Below, piece after piece: positions 18,108 to 31,221 of a DNA stretch of 44,357 nucleotides (position 1 is the stretch's first letter; the number at the start of each line of letters is the position of its first letter). Below the pieces are notes generated by a model. The model saw nothing but the letters and a program-made list of their open reading frames with translations. It searched no databases and was not told where the DNA came from. Source of the DNA: a virus; IMG/VR virus record IMGVR_UViG_3300029915_000054, positions 1-44,357 of that record. The stretch is one strand, 5' to 3'. The translations under genes were made by a program, and so were the position numbers.

Positions 18108-19235
18108 TTAGATACCTGTGAATCTTACTACAGCGAAAGGACGTTTACACATAACACCGGCTGTCGCGTTCGAGAAATCTTCCTCGTATGCTTTAGCTAG
18201 TTGTTGAACGCCTAACACTTGGAACTTAGCTGGAACCATTTGAATGAAGGTTAACCCTCCGTCTGTACTCATATCTTGGATTCTATCCGCGAACATGTAA
18301 AACACGTTTGCAGAACCGTTAGCGTTGTTAAGCTGTGGAGCAGAAACAACACGGCATCTTGGATAAGCATCTTCCAACCATGCGCGAACGCTGATACCAA
18401 AATCAGAGATAACGGTTAGGAAATCTACTGAATCGGTAGCAATTGCAAGAGTTAAATCTGCTTTTTCAGGGTCGATTGTATCTTGTGACTGTGTACGCAA
18501 TTGAACTACGGCTAAACGTAAGTCGTTCGTAATTTCTAGGAACGTCTTGTTTGACCAAAGTGTAGAAGTCGCCGCAGCGTTAGGAGGAACAGGGATATAA
18601 GAACCTAAACCGGGGTCATTCAAGAAACCGTATGTGTTGTTATCGCCAGAGTTGAACCCTACGAAACCAACAGTGTTACGGATAATCTCAAGAGCGAGCG
18701 CGGCAGCTTCACGTTTCATGCCTGAATCATCTACACGTAAACGAGCGGCACGAGCCGATTCCAATACGCCGACTTTCATACCTTCTTCAAAACGTACTAC
18801 TGTACGATAGTTGAAGTTAGTGTTCCAAGAGCTTAATGGTACGTTGGTATAATCTCCATAAACTTGTGAAGTACCAGTACGTTCCAAAATACCTTGTACG
18901 ACCTGTTCGTCTTCCCAAGAACCAGTGGTCATAATACCGACTAAATCGTCAATTTTACGAGCCGCAGTAATTACGAATACAAAGCCGGGTAACCAGTTTT
19001 GTAGGAACTGTACAGGTGTGCCAATGCTTCCAGTGGTAACGGTAGGCTGTACAGCGTCCATTGCCATGGCTTGCATTTTTAACATGTGTTTGTGACCGCT
19101 AAACATTTGGTCAACAATGTGTTTATTTAAGTTAATACCTAGACGTGGCAAGCTCTCAAACTGCTTGTGGTCAAAGTTTTCCAACGCCCGGACTTGTCGG
19201 GCTGATAAGTTGGATTTAACGTCATTCGCTCTCAT
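18108..19235 (-). CDS. Major capsid protein (DUF2184), 375 aa
   Basis: The protein matches DUF2184 capsids: a helical N-terminus, W-PG-VFVITAARKIDDL (about 85-105), GSWEDE-V, then GGLTFIQMVPAKFQVLGV near the C-terminus. It follows the protease/scaffold and cement genes, the usual order. HK97-like fold is expected for the family. No long N-terminal scaffold domain is present, in line with the separate acidic scaffold region in the DUF2213 protein. Confidence 0.85.
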   Translation of the reverse strand: MRANDVKSNLSARQVRALENFDHKQFESLPRLGINLNKHIVDQMFSGHKHMLKMQAMAMDAVQPTVTTGSIGTPVQFLQNWLPGFVFVITAARKIDDLVGIMTTGSWEDEQVVQGILERTGTSQVYGDYTNVPLSSWNTNFNYRTVVRFEEGMKVGVLESARAARLRVDDSGMKREAAALALEIIRNTVGFVGFNSGDNNTYGFLNDPGLGSYIPVPPNAAATSTLWSNKTFLEITNDLRLAVVQLRTQSQDTIDPEKADLTLAIATDSVDFLTVISDFGISVRAWLEDAYPRCRVVSAPQLNNANGSANVFYMFADRIQDMSTDGGLTFIQMVPAKFQVLGVQQLAKAYEEDFSNATAGVMCKRPFAVVRFTGI

Positions 19236-19977: not shown

Positions 19978-21303
19978 TTATTTACCTCCTGATAGGTACG
20001 CATCGATACAGTCAGACTTTATATGTCGTGAATCTTGACCGACCGCTGGAGTACTTACACGAGCACCGCGCAAGAAACCCTCAATCGCTGAATATTCATG
20101 ACCTTTGCGACAAGATACACCGAGCTTTTTAACTGCATAACTGGCGACTTCATCTAAAGTCTTCTCTTTATGGTCAAAAACGCCAATGTGTGGTTGTAGT
20201 CGTTTAACCAGCGCATCACGTACCGCCATTTCTTTGAAAATAGAACGCTTCATAGAGTCCATAGTGTCTTTAGCATCTTTGGGTTTTTCCATGTCGCCTT
20301 TTTTCTCGCCGTCTTCGTCTTTTTTCTTTTCTTCTTCCTCTTCGCTTTCATCTTCGTTAAGTTTGGCTTTCGTCACAAACATAGCGGGATCGGCTTCGTC
20401 TTCTTCTTCGTTCCAAGGCTCGCCAGCTTCGTCACCTTCTTCGGCTTGCTTTTTGCTACCTTCTGGGTCTTCTTCGTCTGCGCCTTTCATAGCGTTCAAT
20501 TCTTGACGAATTTCTTTAAGCATTTGGACGACATCCTGCATTGTCATCTCTTCGCCTTCGTCCTTCGCTTCTTCTTTAATCGGATCTGCCATCACTAGCC
20601 CCTTAGTATCAAAAGTAAATTTAAAATGGTCAAGGACGGCTACGTCATGACCAGACCGCCCTTCCTCAACTAACGCCACATGATTACCGCGGATTTGTCT
20701 TTGGATGGCATCATATCTCACCCCATTGTATACCCCGCTTACAATATCGTAAAGGCAACGGTATCCTATGGAAAGTTCTTTTTTGCCAGCGTCAATCAAT
20801 TCCGCGAGTTTATTTGAAAAGATTTTTAAATTCCCTTTCAAATAACCGTCCTCAAAGTAAACGTCCTCACCTATTACCCCGTGTACGCCTTTTCGCTCGG
20901 CTCCGGTTAAACCGTCATCCTCGGAACCCAGCATTGCGTGTTCGTCTGTCCACGGAATCAATTTAAATGATTCTATGGTTTCGGGGTCTGCCAGTTCTTC
21001 TTCGGGGCGGTACACTTGGTAAATTTTGTCGGGGTCTAAATCGGGGGATATCTGCCCGCCTGAGTATGGGAAAACGCCCACTTTTGATATGGGGTTACCC
21101 TTAATCTCTGCCCAGCCGTTTATATCGTAATCTCGCGCCGATTCATTATCCATCGTTAAATCTAGGATAGAACCTTCGTCTTTTGATTCTCGTTGCTTGC
21201 TAAATGCTATCGCCTCGGCTTGTTTATCGGGATAGCCGGAGCGTTCTAACTCGGCAATATTCTTGCCCAGAACTTTTTTAGATTTGCCGGATTTAAGAGG
21301 CAT
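19978..21303 (-). CDS. Prohead protease with acidic scaffold region (DUF2213), 441 aa
   Basis: Residues about 45-240 form the DUF2213 protease domain, with the serine in KKELSIGYRC (about 172-181) and the histidine in RGNHVALVEEGR (about 205-216). Residues about 245-350 are extremely acidic and Lys-rich low complexity, as in a scaffold. A helical C-terminal region (KRLQPHIG, then SAIEGFLRGAR) follows. It would build the prohead and then process it. It is the gene before cement and capsid. Confidence 0.8.
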   Translation of the reverse strand: MPLKSGKSKKVLGKNIAELERSGYPDKQAEAIAFSKQRESKDEGSILDLTMDNESARDYDINGWAEIKGNPISKVGVFPYSGGQISPDLDPDKIYQVYRPEEELADPETIESFKLIPWTDEHAMLGSEDDGLTGAERKGVHGVIGEDVYFEDGYLKGNLKIFSNKLAELIDAGKKELSIGYRCLYDIVSGVYNGVRYDAIQRQIRGNHVALVEEGRSGHDVAVLDHFKFTFDTKGLVMADPIKEEAKDEGEEMTMQDVVQMLKEIRQELNAMKGADEEDPEGSKKQAEEGDEAGEPWNEEEDEADPAMFVTKAKLNEDESEEEEEKKKDEDGEKKGDMEKPKDAKDTMDSMKRSIFKEMAVRDALVKRLQPHIGVFDHKEKTLDEVASYAVKKLGVSCRKGHEYSAIEGFLRGARVSTPAVGQDSRHIKSDCIDAYLSGGK

Positions 21304-21364: not shown

Positions 21365-21685
21365 CTATAGAGTTATGCCCTCTTTTTTAAGATAGGCGTG
21401 GACTTCGTTATGGTGCGTTTTACACAACCAAATTACATCCAAAGGTTTAGAGTAATCCCAATGATGGCCTTCAACATTAATTTCCCCGCATTGGATACAA
21501 GGTTGCTTCTCTATTTTGCCACGTTTGATATGTACTTTTAAAAGAGACCTAGCGATACCTCGAAGTCGTTGTTTTTCGTTCACGGTATTCGTTTTTCTCC
21601 ATTCTCGCATATATTCGGCATGACAGGGATTACAATATTTATTTTTAATAATAGGGTTGGCGCAGTTAGCACAAAATTTACTCAT
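21365..21685 (-). CDS. HNH endonuclease, free-standing, 106 aa
   Basis: Two CxxC pairs in the first 21 residues form a zinc ribbon. A second zinc site (C63, C66, C88, H91) surrounds the HNH core GHHWDYSKPLDVIWLC and KTHHNEVH, the HH-DY-KPL-V-WLC pattern of phage homing-type endonucleases. RBS GAGAGG precedes the ATG. It lies between the Mu F-like and protease genes with 100 and 61 bases of non-coding DNA around it, unlike the tight spacing elsewhere. It probably nicks DNA of phages lacking it. Confidence 0.85.
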   Translation of the reverse strand: MSKFCANCANPIIKNKYCNPCHAEYMREWRKTNTVNEKQRLRGIARSLLKVHIKRGKIEKQPCIQCGEINVEGHHWDYSKPLDVIWLCKTHHNEVHAYLKKEGITL

Positions 21686-21784: not shown

Positions 21785-22678
21785 TCATTCTTCGTCTGTT
21801 TCAAAAACGATAATAGGGCGCATGTAACACTTACAGTTAATAGGCTCGCCGGGTAACCCTCTGTCCGCTTGAGGTACGCCCAGTGCGGCTTGCTCTTCTC
21901 TAATGTGTTCAAAACTGAACACTTTACCAGCTATATCTATGTGTGACTCTCTAGGGTGAAGACTTCCGCCCGAGTGCCCCCATTCGAATTGTTTCACGCC
22001 ATTGTTTAACAGCTTTTGGCGATTAATCGTATTATAGGCTTTGCGTGTTTGGTCGAGCGCGATATTTTTAGCGCGTCTATAGGATATCCCTTCGTACTTT
22101 TCTAAGTCGGGGATTAAATCAGCTATCCCCCGCCCGGTTGTAATGGAACGCATTACAGAGCCGGTAACGTCTTTGAGGTACTCTTGTGGGATAGACTTTA
22201 TTAACGATACATTTTCAGAAACGAGAGCTGTAGAAACTTCCTCTTGCCCACTAGACACAACACTGGTTTTTAGTGTAAGGCCGCCCGTTAGTTTCTTTAG
22301 GCTTTCTTGAACCGTAGTCGCGCTCGTCTTTGTTGCTCCCTGTACCATTGTTTTAGCCAGTGAAGACGCTTTGAGGTTAAAGAATTCCTCGAACGTGCGC
22401 GACAAAGAATTGAGTAAAATTCTAGCCTGAGACGCAAGCGAAGCATCCATTGCTGTAAGTTTCTCTTGGCTTTTAAAAAAGTCATCTGATATCTCCCCTT
22501 TAAAAAGGCGGACTATCTGTTTTTTAGTCTCTCTAGCCATTTGTTTAACCAACAGTTGAAGAGCGGCTACATACCGCTCCTGTTGTGCTGCATTATATGC
22601 TAGTTTGGAGCCTTTTAAAACAGTGTCTCTGTTTTTTACCCACTTGGCTCTCTTTTTGGTCAGTTCAAGCTCAGCCAT
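21785..22678 (-). CDS. Mu gpF-like minor head protein, 297 aa
   Basis: The C-terminal 110 residues carry the gpF signature: RRAKNIALDQTRKAYN (about 205-220), QFEWGHSGGSLHPRESH (about 235-251) and GEPINCKCYMRPI near the end. The N-terminal half is helical. The protein sits inside the prohead next to the portal and helps head morphogenesis or early DNA ejection. Its start overlaps the Tad2-like gene by eight bases. Confidence 0.85.
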   Translation of the reverse strand: MAELELTKKRAKWVKNRDTVLKGSKLAYNAAQQERYVAALQLLVKQMARETKKQIVRLFKGEISDDFFKSQEKLTAMDASLASQARILLNSLSRTFEEFFNLKASSLAKTMVQGATKTSATTVQESLKKLTGGLTLKTSVVSSGQEEVSTALVSENVSLIKSIPQEYLKDVTGSVMRSITTGRGIADLIPDLEKYEGISYRRAKNIALDQTRKAYNTINRQKLLNNGVKQFEWGHSGGSLHPRESHIDIAGKVFSFEHIREEQAALGVPQADRGLPGEPINCKCYMRPIIVFETDEE

Positions 22679-22928
22679 GAATCTCCCAATCTTCGCCTAA
22701 AATATCCATCGTTTGAGCATCCCACACCGAAACATTCTTACCTATGCAAACGTCAATGTGTGGGGAATATTTAACCTTTTCGCCCATCTTAAACCAAAGG
22801 TTCAAAGGGTGTCTATTAACTTCAAATTCTGAACCGGGTACTAAAAACACAAAAACATCTTTAGGCCATCCGGCGCGTTGTAGCTTCGCGCCTTTCTTAA
22901 TCAGGTCTAACGCTTCACTAAAATTCAT
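22671..22928 (-). CDS. tad2: Tad2-like protein (DUF2829), possible anti-Thoeris
   Basis: The 85-residue protein has the DUF2829 layout: MNFSEALDLIKKGAKLQRAGW at the start (split here as SEALDLIKKG and LQRAGW), FVFLVPGSEFEVNRHPL, YSPHIDV and a C-terminal DILGEDWEI. Members of this family, named Tad2, bind the cyclic ADP-ribose signal of the Thoeris defence and so block abortive infection. Here it lies inside the head operon between portal and Mu F-like genes, so it would be made late unless a hidden promoter exists. Sequestering activity is inferred from the family. Confidence 0.75.
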   Translation of the reverse strand: MNFSEALDLIKKGAKLQRAGWPKDVFVFLVPGSEFEVNRHPLNLWFKMGEKVKYSPHIDVCIGKNVSVWDAQTMDILGEDWEIHG

Positions 22929-22931
22929 CCC

Positions 22932-24461
22932 TTATGCTCCTGCTATTGGGCTTTCCGCGAACGGGTCGGGCTCTTCAATTTCCTTGGCCGTCAAATTTAT
23001 ATACCCGCTGCTTTCATCGTGTCGTAATCTGTCGCGCTCGTCTTGACCATCAATCGCACCCGAATTAACCAAGAATACACCTGCCTCTGCATTGAGTTTA
23101 TTAATCTCGGCTTGCTCTTTCTTCGTCATTGCATCGAGTTCGTTCCAGTCAATCATGACCTCGAAAGGCTCGATACCGAATTGAGGCGCAATTTCTGAAT
23201 GTATTAATAGCATGTGGTGACGTTCAATTAAAGGGGTTAAATCGTGTTCTTGGATGGACTCTAATTCTTCGTGATAGTTTGCTTCTTCAAATTCCCCGGT
23301 AGCGTTAAACCCTTTAGGAGGAGTGCCTAAGAGTTTAACGGAGGGAACATTCGCAGCGGCGGCAACTAACTGGTATTGCGTCATAATAACGGCGTCCAGG
23401 TCTGCCAAACTAGTGTCAAATTGTTGCATTTCGTCCTCGAGGTCTATCGTTTTAACGCCGAAATTATCGCGGCGTTGCGTGAACTCGGTTAAACGCTTTG
23501 CAACCTTCCAAGGAAACATTTCTGCTTTTGCTAAATCCATCTTAACCACATCAAGCCGTTTAGTCATGGCGAGCATGGGCGTTTCATCTGCGGTTTTCTC
23601 AGACGCATAAACGCGCTGTGCGATTTTCTGCGGAATAGGAATACCCCCGAAAATATAGGTAGGCTTTAACAGGTCGCTAACCTCTTCGGTGCGGAAAATA
23701 ACAAGGTGTGTTCTATGTACTTTCTTGCCGTTAATGATCCACCAAGTCGGCTCATAGAAATTTATAGACGCTGGGTTTCCTGCGGCTTCGTTATCTAGCT
23801 GCGGGGTTATCCAATACGGGTCAATCTGTGAAATACCTTGATAACTTCCGGGCGTTATAGCATCGATGTTAAATGGGTTTTCGTAATATTCGTCCTGTAG
23901 CTCGTCATTTTCCATTTTCACGTTAAACATGGCCACGCGAATACCAAACACTCTACCCATTTGCACCAGTTGGATTAAATTCTTATTGAGTTTATATCGC
24001 TTGTCGGCCTTCTTAATGGCCTCTAAAACTTCTGGGTCTATCTTAACACCACCACTAATGGATATTTCAAAGCCGTTTCTCGTTGCGTCTTTAGCGGGCA
24101 TTAAACAGCACTTAGAGATTAACCAGTTTTGAGCGAGCATGGCGCATAATTGATACCCGATAAATGTTTGCTGTGCATACCAGAGAACCTGCGTTGTAGG
24201 CATAATCGAATTGCCGCCCCATTGCGCCTTAATGTTAACTTGGTTATCCATTGCAAACGTGGGCTTTTCCTTCGTGTCTAGGGCTATCGAAGTATGGACG
24301 GAATTATTAAAATTAGCCTCCCAAAACTTCTCTAGCTTTTCGTGTTCTTCGGTATCTAAAGGCTGGTCGTAATAGTTAAAAGCGCGGGGGCGTTCTGGTT
24401 TCTCCTTTACGACAGGAGCTATTTCGGGTTTTTTAAACCGGCTTAGTAATCGTTTAATCAT
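22932..24461 (-). CDS. Portal protein (DUF1073), 509 aa
   Basis: The protein follows the large terminase with a four-base overlap and matches DUF1073 portals: [18 protein letters not shown] (about 100-118), [23 protein letters not shown] (about 240-255) and [17 protein letters not shown] (about 374-390). Length is normal for the family. It forms the dodecameric DNA channel at one capsid vertex. The first 40 residues are basic and probably disordered. Confidence 0.85.
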
Positions 24462-26065
24462 ATAAAAGCACTCCTGCGCTCTGGGGGTGTGGGGGCAAAA
24501 GCTATCATAACACTATCTGCTCTATTCGGAGAAAGTCCACCGTCCGCTATTTTGTCTACTATAATTTTTCCCGCATCATTTTGGTAGTAAGTAGGTTGTG
24601 AAAGTTCAGTAATTAAAGCCGAGAATTCCGCGATATGGCTTGATATAGATATTATCTCGTCTGGGTTACACTCGATACCCTGAGTTATCCAGCGGTGCGT
24701 TTTCTGGAATCGTGTTCGTAACGCCCACCACCCCTGAGCTTTAAAGTTTCCAAAAAAGTCTTCGTTTGTGGGTCCGCGCTCACGGTTGCGCCCGTCTTCG
24801 CCGGTACTAAACGGATAATTTTCTTTGTCTAAAACTTCGCCTGAACCTCTAAACGGATTGAAAATAATCTCATGCAATCGCGCGGCGTTGATTCGTTTAG
24901 CGTCTCCACGTGCGCCCGCGCCCAAGCCGTCTGCGTCATAATAGACCTCGGGGTATCCAAGCACATCACACAGGGTAAACGCTTTTTGTACCGTCTCAAA
25001 AATATCCGAGCCTTTACCGCTCCAGATTTCGAGATACTCTAAAAGTATACCGTACCGACCACAGTACGCATTTTTATCCTTGCCCTCGTCTGCAATGTCA
25101 AGCCCGGCTTTCCTTTGACCACTAGGGGTTATCCCTAGTTTTATATGCGCATCAATAGCCGATTGAACCCATGCCGAGGGAATCACGATACCCTCAACGG
25201 ACGCGCTATAATCTAAATCTACCTCTTGCGCGATAACCACGGGGTTATCAATGTCTTTGCAAGTCTTATCGTACCATGCTTGGTCTTTGCGAGGGTCTTC
25301 GCGCCAGTGAAACGAAAATACACTAATCGCGCCCCCGAATCGTTTACGCGCAAAAGGGTTATTCATACCGCGAGGCGTTGAAACGTCTATCCGGCAATTT
25401 GTGGTTTGCGATAGCGAGGCATCTATTAACTCGGGTCGTGGCATCCATGCGGATTCGTCCACGAAATAGAAACTGGCTCGCGCTCCCCGCCCGATACCAT
25501 CCCCCGACTCGCCAGCGATAACGCTATTTGTGTATGGGAATTCTATGCGCATGTATGGCGCGTGTTTTCGTTCGTCATAGCCGGGGCGAAATTCTTCCGG
25601 TACGTTGGCAATGAATTGCCGCGCCTTATAAAGTAGCGACTTCGGATCACCTTTTTTGTCCACATACTCTTCTTTACGTGAACCGAACCCAGCGACCACT
25701 CCGTCATTAAATAAACAGATTGTACTAGAAACGGCTATAGTGAGCCATGATAAACCCATTTCCCTCGATTTATCAGTAATGCCCGGCTCTTTGTTCTTCC
25801 AGCGTTCCATAAACCAAGCTACCCATTCCTCTTGTTTTGGGAATAGCATAAATGGCATAAGCGTAGGCAAGCCCACCTCTACATTTCGAGGGTCAAAAGT
25901 TACACCCCAGTCAATAATGAACTGGGCGGGATTCTCTTTATAAAACGCCCGCATACCCGCGAGTTTTTTAGGGTTTTTTCTTAGGCGTGTTAGATTCTCG
26001 ATTCTTGCATCGAAGACCTGAACGTAATCGGGTTTTTTGAAGTCGAAGGCAAACGGTAACGGCAT
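24458..26065 (-). CDS. terL: Terminase large subunit, 535 aa
   Basis: The ATPase domain has a Walker A-like KSREMGLS (residues 99-106) and Walker B FYFVDES (199-205). The RNase H-like nuclease domain has GLDIADEG (321-328), YYDADGLG (376-383) and a late acidic residue in RADSVMIAF (about 520-528), giving the expected acidic cluster. The ATPase pumps DNA into the prohead through the portal; the nuclease cuts the concatemer. Small terminase is separated by three fibre genes and two small ORFs, an unusual spacing. Confidence 0.9.
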
Positions 26066-26253: not shown

Positions 26254-26271
26254 AAAGGGGCTTAACGCCCC
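26254..26271 (-). terminator. Hairpin, weak terminator candidate upstream of terL unit
   Basis: On the minus strand GGGGC, a five-base loop and GCCCC (26271-26257) are followed by TTT (26256-26254). It lies between the gene at 26278 and the small ORF before terL. The T run is short, so partial termination separating fibre and packaging messages is plausible but unproven. Confidence 0.45.
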
Positions 26272-26277
26272 GTTTCG

Positions 26278-26475
26278 TTATTCGTGTTCTATTTGTGCCG
26301 GGGCTTCATCAGCTTTAGGAGCCGCTAAAGAGGCCGCTTTAACACCGATAAACTCGGCCAGCATTTCAACTAAACTACCCACTTGGTCAAGCAATAATTG
26401 CTCAATGTGTGGAGCCGCTTCAACCATTTCCTTTTCAATGAAACTGATAATCGCTTTACCAAAAATCTCTAACAT
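26278..26475 (-). CDS. Hypothetical helical protein, 65 aa
   Basis: AGGAGAG precedes the ATG at 26475. Residues 1-48 form long amphipathic helices (FGKAIISFIEKEMVEAA, then QLLLDQVGSLVEMLAEFIG); the rest is Ala/Pro/Glu-rich. The helical pattern could give membrane association or an oligomer. No family recognised. It lies between fibre genes and terL. Confidence 0.55.
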   Translation of the reverse strand: MLEIFGKAIISFIEKEMVEAAPHIEQLLLDQVGSLVEMLAEFIGVKAASLAAPKADEAPAQIEHE

Positions 26476-30567: not shown

Positions 30568-31221
30568 CTACTCAATATGGAGCGCGTTGGTCGGTATCGC
30601 GCCGCCGCTCTCGAACTGGTCGCCCGAGTTAGCCTTTGTAACGCGCTTAGGGTACTGTTTTGATAATTTAAGTATATCCTTGCGAACCAAGTCACACAAG
30701 GGCATTAAGTAACGGTGCTTGACGCTGCCCTTAACTATCTGTATGAAGTCTTTACCCATGTGTGTGCCGTATTTCGCTCTCATAGAACGCCCGTGCATCC
30801 TCACGCCGTTTACCATGTATTCATCCGCTGCGTTAGATTGCCCCGAATAAATCCAGTTTCCCGCTTGATAAATACCGCCATGATGATTTTGGTTTGTGTC
30901 TGCGAAGGATATAACCATCTTTAGGCCGGGTGATACTTTTTTGAGCAATTTAAAACTAATGGCGACTATGCGGCTAACTGGCGTTTCGTGAGCCGTCAAT
31001 GCAATCCTCACAAGCTCGCAGCATTCTGTTTGCTGTAGCCCATAGGGAGCGCCTAAGGTGCTGTTCGCGCCCCGGCCATACAAAACCACGCCTATAAACT
31101 TTCCGTGTTCCCACACGCCGATTTTAATCAGTTTGCCAGCGGGTACAGTCTTGCTATAGTGGAAATTCACACAAGCGTATTTTGTGGCCTCATAACTCGC
31201 ATAGTCTAGTTTTAACGTCAT
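30568..31221 (-). CDS. mom: Mu Mom-like DNA modification protein, 217 aa
   Basis: Residues 19-24 NFHYSK, 36-47 GVWEHGKFIGVV, 69-75 ELVRIAL and 105-127 (SFADTNQNHHGGIYQAGNW) match the Mom family, whose Mu member adds a carbamoylmethyl group to adenines and protects phage DNA from restriction. The GNAT-like fold is known for the family. It overlaps the ParB-like gene by one base. No Com-like translational activator is seen. It is transcribed just before packaging genes, which suits modification before encapsidation. Confidence 0.85.
   Translation of the reverse strand: MTLKLDYASYEATKYACVNFHYSKTVPAGKLIKIGVWEHGKFIGVVLYGRGANSTLGAPYGLQQTECCELVRIALTAHETPVSRIVAISFKLLKKVSPGLKMVISFADTNQNHHGGIYQAGNWIYSGQSNAADEYMVNGVRMHGRSMRAKYGTHMGKDFIQIVKGSVKHRYLMPLCDLVRKDILKLSKQYPKRVTKANSGDQFESGGAIPTNALHIE

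Follow-up and report, generated by a model that had tools for sequence, protein, structure and literature searches.

Tad2 proteins hold signals made by TIR proteins, gcADPR in the case of SPO1 Tad2 and His-ADPR in the case of ModTad2 (PMC12043709, PMC13299392). SPO1 Tad2 (gp34.65; 8smf/8smg) counteracts type I Thoeris, and ModTad2, from a Myroides odoratus prophage (9eib, 8v3e), counteracts type II Thoeris. Structures with cADPR isomers and cyclic di-GMP are available for HgmTad2/AcrIIA7 and SptTad2 (8kbi-8kbm, 8wjd), in which the middle insertion is longer and has been linked to cyclic dinucleotide binding (PMC12043709). The same review describes the gcADPR pocket of SPO1 Tad2 as shared by two protomers: the first contributes loop β1-β2, loop β3-β4 and strand β4, the second loop β1-β2, loop β4-α3 and helix α3 (PMC12043709). 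On the side of the trigger, staphylococcal and streptococcal Thoeris systems sense major capsid proteins (PMC12578639).

Here, we analysed the complete 44,357-nucleotide stretch of the IMG/VR virus record IMGVR_UViG_3300029915_000054 (referred to as the window), in which the original prediction had placed an 85-residue DUF2829 (now PF11195) protein between the portal and Mu F-like genes.

A Tad2-family gene is embedded in the packaging and head operon

The gene at positions 22671-22928 of the window (minus strand) is an intact open reading frame with an ATG start, encoding 85 aa. Profile searches confirmed the predicted neighbours: a portal gene upstream (22932..24461, minus strand; Phage_portal_3, 302.6 bits) and, downstream, the gene for a Mu F-like minor head/head morphogenesis protein (MuF; 21785..22678, minus strand; Phage_Mu_F, 42.8 bits). 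The packaging/head operon runs on the minus strand in the order terminase, portal, Tad2, MuF, small HNH endonuclease, DUF2213 protease, major capsid protein and tail genes. It starts with the terminase large subunit (24458..26065, minus strand) and includes the DUF2213/head maturation protease (19978..21303, minus strand) and the major capsid protein (18108..19235, minus strand), whose counterparts elsewhere act as Thoeris triggers (PMC12578639). The small HNH-type endonuclease gene (21365-21685, minus strand), located between those for MuF and the protease, has probably been inserted into the head operon as well.

Only 3 nt separate the portal stop from the Tad2 start, and the Tad2 and MuF genes share 8 nt. 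Shine-Dalgarno-like motifs precede both starts and lie in the preceding gene: AGGAG (22937..22941, minus strand), inside the last portal codons, is the likely ribosome-binding site of Tad2, and GGGAG (22683..22687, minus strand), inside the last Tad2 codons, is that of MuF. A promoter of its own, which had been proposed for Tad2, is not supported: this arrangement leaves no intergenic space and promoter-like matches were at chance level (12 found, 9.1 ± 2.8 expected). Further upstream, a GC-rich hairpin (26257-26271, minus strand) lies between a 65-aa ORF (26278-26475) and the terminase gene; a promoter-like match following it (26092-26064) is a possible start of the head operon.

Tad2 orthologues showed 73-87% protein identity, with four-fold-degenerate sites that were saturated (25-39% identical), and the gene is under strong purifying selection. 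Protein identity kept despite saturated four-fold sites, together with the recurrence of the gene at related junctions described below, argues that it is not a chance ORF.

Tad2 is not the only anti-defence gene on the minus strand of the window: positions 30568-31221, upstream of the terminase gene and beside a ParB-like gene, encode a Mom-family protein (PF25680, E 1.5e-43). Mom is a DNA-modification anti-restriction protein of phage Mu.

The window protein has a Tad2 fold and is closest to ModTad2

The Tad2-like profile PF11195 matched the window protein with 58.2 bits (E 1.2e-15; profile positions 1-72 of 73), for a curated cut-off of 25 bits. The nearest solved sequences were those of ModTad2 (8v3e, 9eib; 50 bits); SPO1 Tad2 followed with 28 bits, and SptTad2 and AcrIIA7/HgmTad2 ranked further down. 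An AlphaFold2 (AF2) model of the monomer, built from an alignment with 80 homologues, reached a pLDDT of 97.6. When the PDB was searched with this model, all 24 matches at E <= 0.001 were chains of the Tad2/AcrIIA7 family, the top one being the ModTad2-His-ADPR complex (TM 0.80), ahead of SPO1 Tad2 (TM 0.65-0.75). The near-invariant residues of the 80 homologues (F3, R18, W21, F26, R39, P41, L42, Y54, H57, D59, W69, D75, D80 and W81) are all kept in the window protein, including F3, R18, W69, D75, D80 and W81, which are invariant. The profile match, the predicted fold and the invariant residues bear out the assignment to the Tad2 family; none of the PADLOC models matched the protein.

ModTad2 has the same length and the same single-domain organisation as the window protein. 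The two proteins are ~35% identical and differ in two motifs, WNGKGM and TPSVSD in ModTad2 corresponding to WP-KDV and DAQTMD in the window protein. SPO1 Tad2 has the same family and fold, with a different middle segment. HgmTad2/AcrIIA7 and SptTad2 likewise share the family and fold, and their long β2-β5 insertion is missing in the window protein, which is ~10-16 residues shorter in the alignment. This difference bears on whether the window protein could be an anti-CRISPR of the AcrIIA7 type, which belongs to the same fold family as Tad2. AcrIIA7/HgmTad2 (8kbi) does match in both profile and fold; however, the similarity is lower than that to ModTad2 and the AcrIIA7 middle insertion, ~16 residues longer, has no counterpart, which makes this activity extremely improbable. 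The ligand would be of the ADP-ribose type, ModTad2/His-ADPR being the closest structural model. The exact ligand is uncertain because the pocket loops are remodelled in the window clade.

Loops reported to line the ligand pocket are replaced in the window clade

The pocket region was defined by the loops given in the review (PMC12043709) and not by single contact residues. Based on the alignment and the AF2 model, residues 19-25 (AGWPKDV; 22854..22874, minus strand) form loop β1-β2 and residues 62-73 (22710..22745, minus strand) cover loop β3-β4, strand β4 and loop β4-α3. WNGK and W-x-x-S loops are found in SPO1 Tad2, ModTad2 and 94-96% of homologues; the window clade has WP-K and WDAQ at these places. 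The change from WNGK to WP-K, with the loss of one residue, is present in the window Tad2 and its nearest relatives. In the clade, the β3-β4 turn is also one residue shorter, and Q replaces S72, a residue that 94% of homologues share with SPO1 Tad2 and ModTad2.

Within the pocket region, the window protein departs from the consensus at 13 of 19 well-conserved positions and its nearest relatives at 13-14, whereas 69 other homologues do so at 2.7 of the 19 on average. In the rest of the window protein, 12 of 39 positions depart, and the difference between pocket and rest (p 0.011) is descriptive only, since the regions were picked after viewing the alignment and the homologues used for comparison had been retrieved with a motif that spans residues 24-33. 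The check on pocket conservation put forward in the original prediction therefore had a divided outcome: the family invariants are kept, whereas the loops reported as pocket-lining are replaced. The replacements vary little within the clade, which suggests a shift in specificity and not degeneration of the protein.

These departures are what speaks for a sponge of Tad2 fold with a changed specificity, whose remodelled pocket would hold another nucleotide or NAD-derived signal, such as a cyclic dinucleotide or a new TIR product, and would not act on the known Thoeris types. The retention of the invariant core residues argues against such a change, and a cyclic dinucleotide ligand is further disfavoured by the missing β2-β5 insertion. 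We regard this explanation as unlikely. A different kind of change was seen in the junction Tad2 of L043 (L043:3953-4198), which has a long insert in loop β1-β2 and has lost the YxPHID strand; this rearranged gene is possibly a decaying copy.

The portal-MuF junction is a cargo site

Viral contigs and bacterial genomes were searched for loci with a similar portal. Among 124 distinct related junctions with both flanks, the portal gene directly abuts the MuF gene in 103, and 10, each from a viral contig, have Tad2 in between; the window is an additional case. L024 also has Tad2 after the portal gene and is outside this count, its contig ending before MuF. In L018, with a portal 83% identical to that of the window, and in L022, portal is directly followed by MuF, without Tad2. 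No Tad2 was found elsewhere in 16 related records lacking it at the junction, and four records with a junction Tad2 had exactly one copy each (some of these records are fragments). L228 has Tad2 directly 3' of MuF instead. As in a moron, Tad2 is an additional gene at a junction that close relatives keep intact without it; as to the promoter and terminator of its own that a moron would have, the junction showed no intergenic space and the promoter-like matches at chance level described above. A 556-nt 'gap' in L068 was rejected as an insertion, as it corresponded to a split portal ORF: the portal at L068:3624-5137 consists of two overlapping ORFs, reflecting a frameshift or an assembly error.

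Other small genes were found at the same place. The junction of L047 holds a Lar restriction-alleviation protein (PF14354, E 7e-10) in addition to Tad2, and that of L052 holds Tad2 and DUF3310. The MuF protein next to Tad2 and Lar in L047 (L047:5982-7889) is 635 aa long and has an intein/HINT-like C-terminal part. The junction ORFs L025:4851-4997, L033:3349-3588 and L035:3343-3495 encode short, acidic, helical proteins without a family, which share a G-[FY]-I-x-A-L-x-E-[IV] motif and are candidates for further anti-defence genes.

A junction ORF of 74-76 aa in L044, L045 and L064 matched the Acb2/Tad1 hairpin profile (PF24729), although below the cut-off (E 0.0007-0.004). Such Acb2-like candidates, located at L045:5553-5777 and L280:3001-3228, have the motif L-S/T-I...L-Q/K-E-A/S-x-x-W-A in common with T4 Vs.4. 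The AF2 model of the candidate was poor (pLDDT 78, pTM 0.39), a PDB sequence search with it returned no match, and the Acb2 profile gave chance matches at E <= 1 in 8 of 14 control genomes. Given the sub-threshold score, the chance matches in controls, the poor model and the negative PDB search, the Acb2-like ORF of L044/L045/L064 is a lead only, kept on account of the T4 Vs.4 motif. The variety of occupants (Lar, DUF3310, Acb2-like and short ORFs) indicated that cargo genes settle at the portal-MuF junction, Tad2 being the most frequent of them.

Tad2 has been replaced independently of the portal gene

The presence of Tad2 on the portal tree required 6-8 changes. The window and L077, which with L018 is among its closest relatives by portal, are sisters on this tree (support 100/99) with portals 85% identical, whereas their Tad2 proteins are only 58% identical, that of L077 grouping with those of L026 and L035. 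The window Tad2 is instead 87% identical to those of L001 and L023, for portals sharing 69%; in the case of L001, portal and MuF are 67-70% identical to their window counterparts. Forcing the window and L077 pair onto the Tad2 tree was rejected (p 2e-8), and so was forcing the Tad2 groupings onto the portal tree (p 2e-5 and 2e-73). Several independent insertions of Tad2 at the junction are suggested by the trees; they are not proven, since a single clade for all junction Tad2s, corresponding to a single origin with losses and recombination, was not rejected (p 0.22).

A recent transfer was considered as the cause of the high Tad2 identity with L001/L002 and rejected, since Tad2 and the neighbouring genes are equally saturated at four-fold sites. 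Saturation or near-saturation of these sites everywhere indicates an old exchange combined with purifying selection and not a fresh copy. Replacement and recurrence were thus both observed, and the best explanation includes Tad2 as an accessory gene that is repeatedly gained, lost or exchanged at the portal-MuF junction.

This behaviour has to be reconciled with any role in the particle itself, as a head-assembly accessory or decoration protein that has a Tad2 fold by chance. Such a role would agree with the tight embedding of the gene in the operon, its probable translational coupling to MuF and a conservation exceeding that of portal and MuF between the window and L001. Nevertheless, Tad2 is missing in L018 and most of the group, a divergent version takes its place in L077 and homologues elsewhere are found in replication regions; we find a head-assembly role highly improbable.

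Synthesis with head proteins would fit a sponge role

In annotated phages, Tad2 is usually found near replication, nucleotide or lysis genes. Its neighbours include DNA polymerase, nucleases, SSB, thymidylate synthase and ribonucleotide reductase, and, among the families listed, 2 of the 125 neighbours gave head or packaging matches. The structural placement nevertheless recurs in unrelated phages, with Tad2 proteins that all score above the PF11195 cut-off. In the structural operon of SpaA1, Tad2 comes after MuF; in Klebsiella phage PWKp9B it immediately follows the capsid gene; in Pectobacterium phage Koot it is flanked by two internal virion proteins; and in a Vibrio phage it sits just ahead of the major capsid gene.

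Judging from gene order, Tad2 is probably translated late, together with the head proteins. The original prediction had called this place odd for an anti-defence gene. The place is indeed unusual, most homologues adjoining replication or nucleotide genes; the timing, however, would lose most of its oddity, since Thoeris can be triggered by a major capsid protein (PMC12578639) and structural placement recurs in unrelated phages.

In the mechanism that we propose, a Tad2 tetramer would bind and hold an NAD-derived immune signal that bacterial TIR proteins produce, and the suicide effector would stay off as long as the signal is held. With the major capsid protein triggering the Thoeris TIR sensors, the alarm would begin at head-protein synthesis. 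The sponge would be needed in stoichiometric amounts, and translation as part of the late head operon would supply Tad2 along with the trigger itself, so both timing and dose would fit a sponge role. We think it likely that the window protein is a Tad2-family sponge, swapped at the portal-MuF junction and made with the head proteins as the alarm starts, with protection of the phage as the expected outcome.

The same neighbourhood could be read as a sign that Tad2 is packaged with portal and MuF and ejected with the DNA, the next cell being disarmed at once. Apart from the position of the gene here and in Koot, the head-associated anti-restriction proteins DarA/Hdf of P1 offer a precedent (PMC12810830). 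We judge carriage in the virion very unlikely: neither a packaging signal nor a fusion was seen in Tad2, the many relatives in which portal abuts MuF show that it is dispensable for the particle, and pre-arming would be needless if newly made capsid triggers Thoeris. An extension of the preferred sponge reading is possible, although doubtful. The junction would be a swap site for blockers of nucleotide-based immunity (Tad2 and perhaps Acb2-like proteins), produced alongside the very capsid proteins that set off the alarm, and the Tad2 pocket of the window clade would be remodelled for an undescribed signal.

Discussion

If coat proteins are what sets off the alarm, sponge genes would have reason to reside in structural operons, and this idea would answer the question of why an anti-defence protein is made late. 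The portal-MuF junction is a fixed slot that can easily be scanned across phage genomes for further anti-signalling proteins, and it already provides leads in the 48-89 residue ORFs of L025, L033 and L035 and in the Acb2-like candidate of L044/L045. A Tad2 clade whose pocket is altered and yet conserved may also lead to a signal outside the range of known Tad2 proteins.

The acr genes of Pseudomonas Mu-like phages are driven by a promoter of their own. Their anti-CRISPR accessory locus (region of genomic plasticity G; PMC4378225) resembles the junction described here: in both, core genes of a phage group enclose a fixed slot for variable, small anti-defence genes. It differs in that the proteins are other than Tad2, and no promoter is evident at the window junction. 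P015 of Rhizobiophage AP-20-A, an uncharacterised PF11195 protein, is like the window protein closer to ModTad2 than to SPO1 Tad2; this phage is a podovirus, for which a portal-MuF junction is not described (PMC13299392). Compared with these systems, Tad2 sponges themselves are known, and what is new is a Tad2 with a remodelled pocket at a swap site of the head operon.
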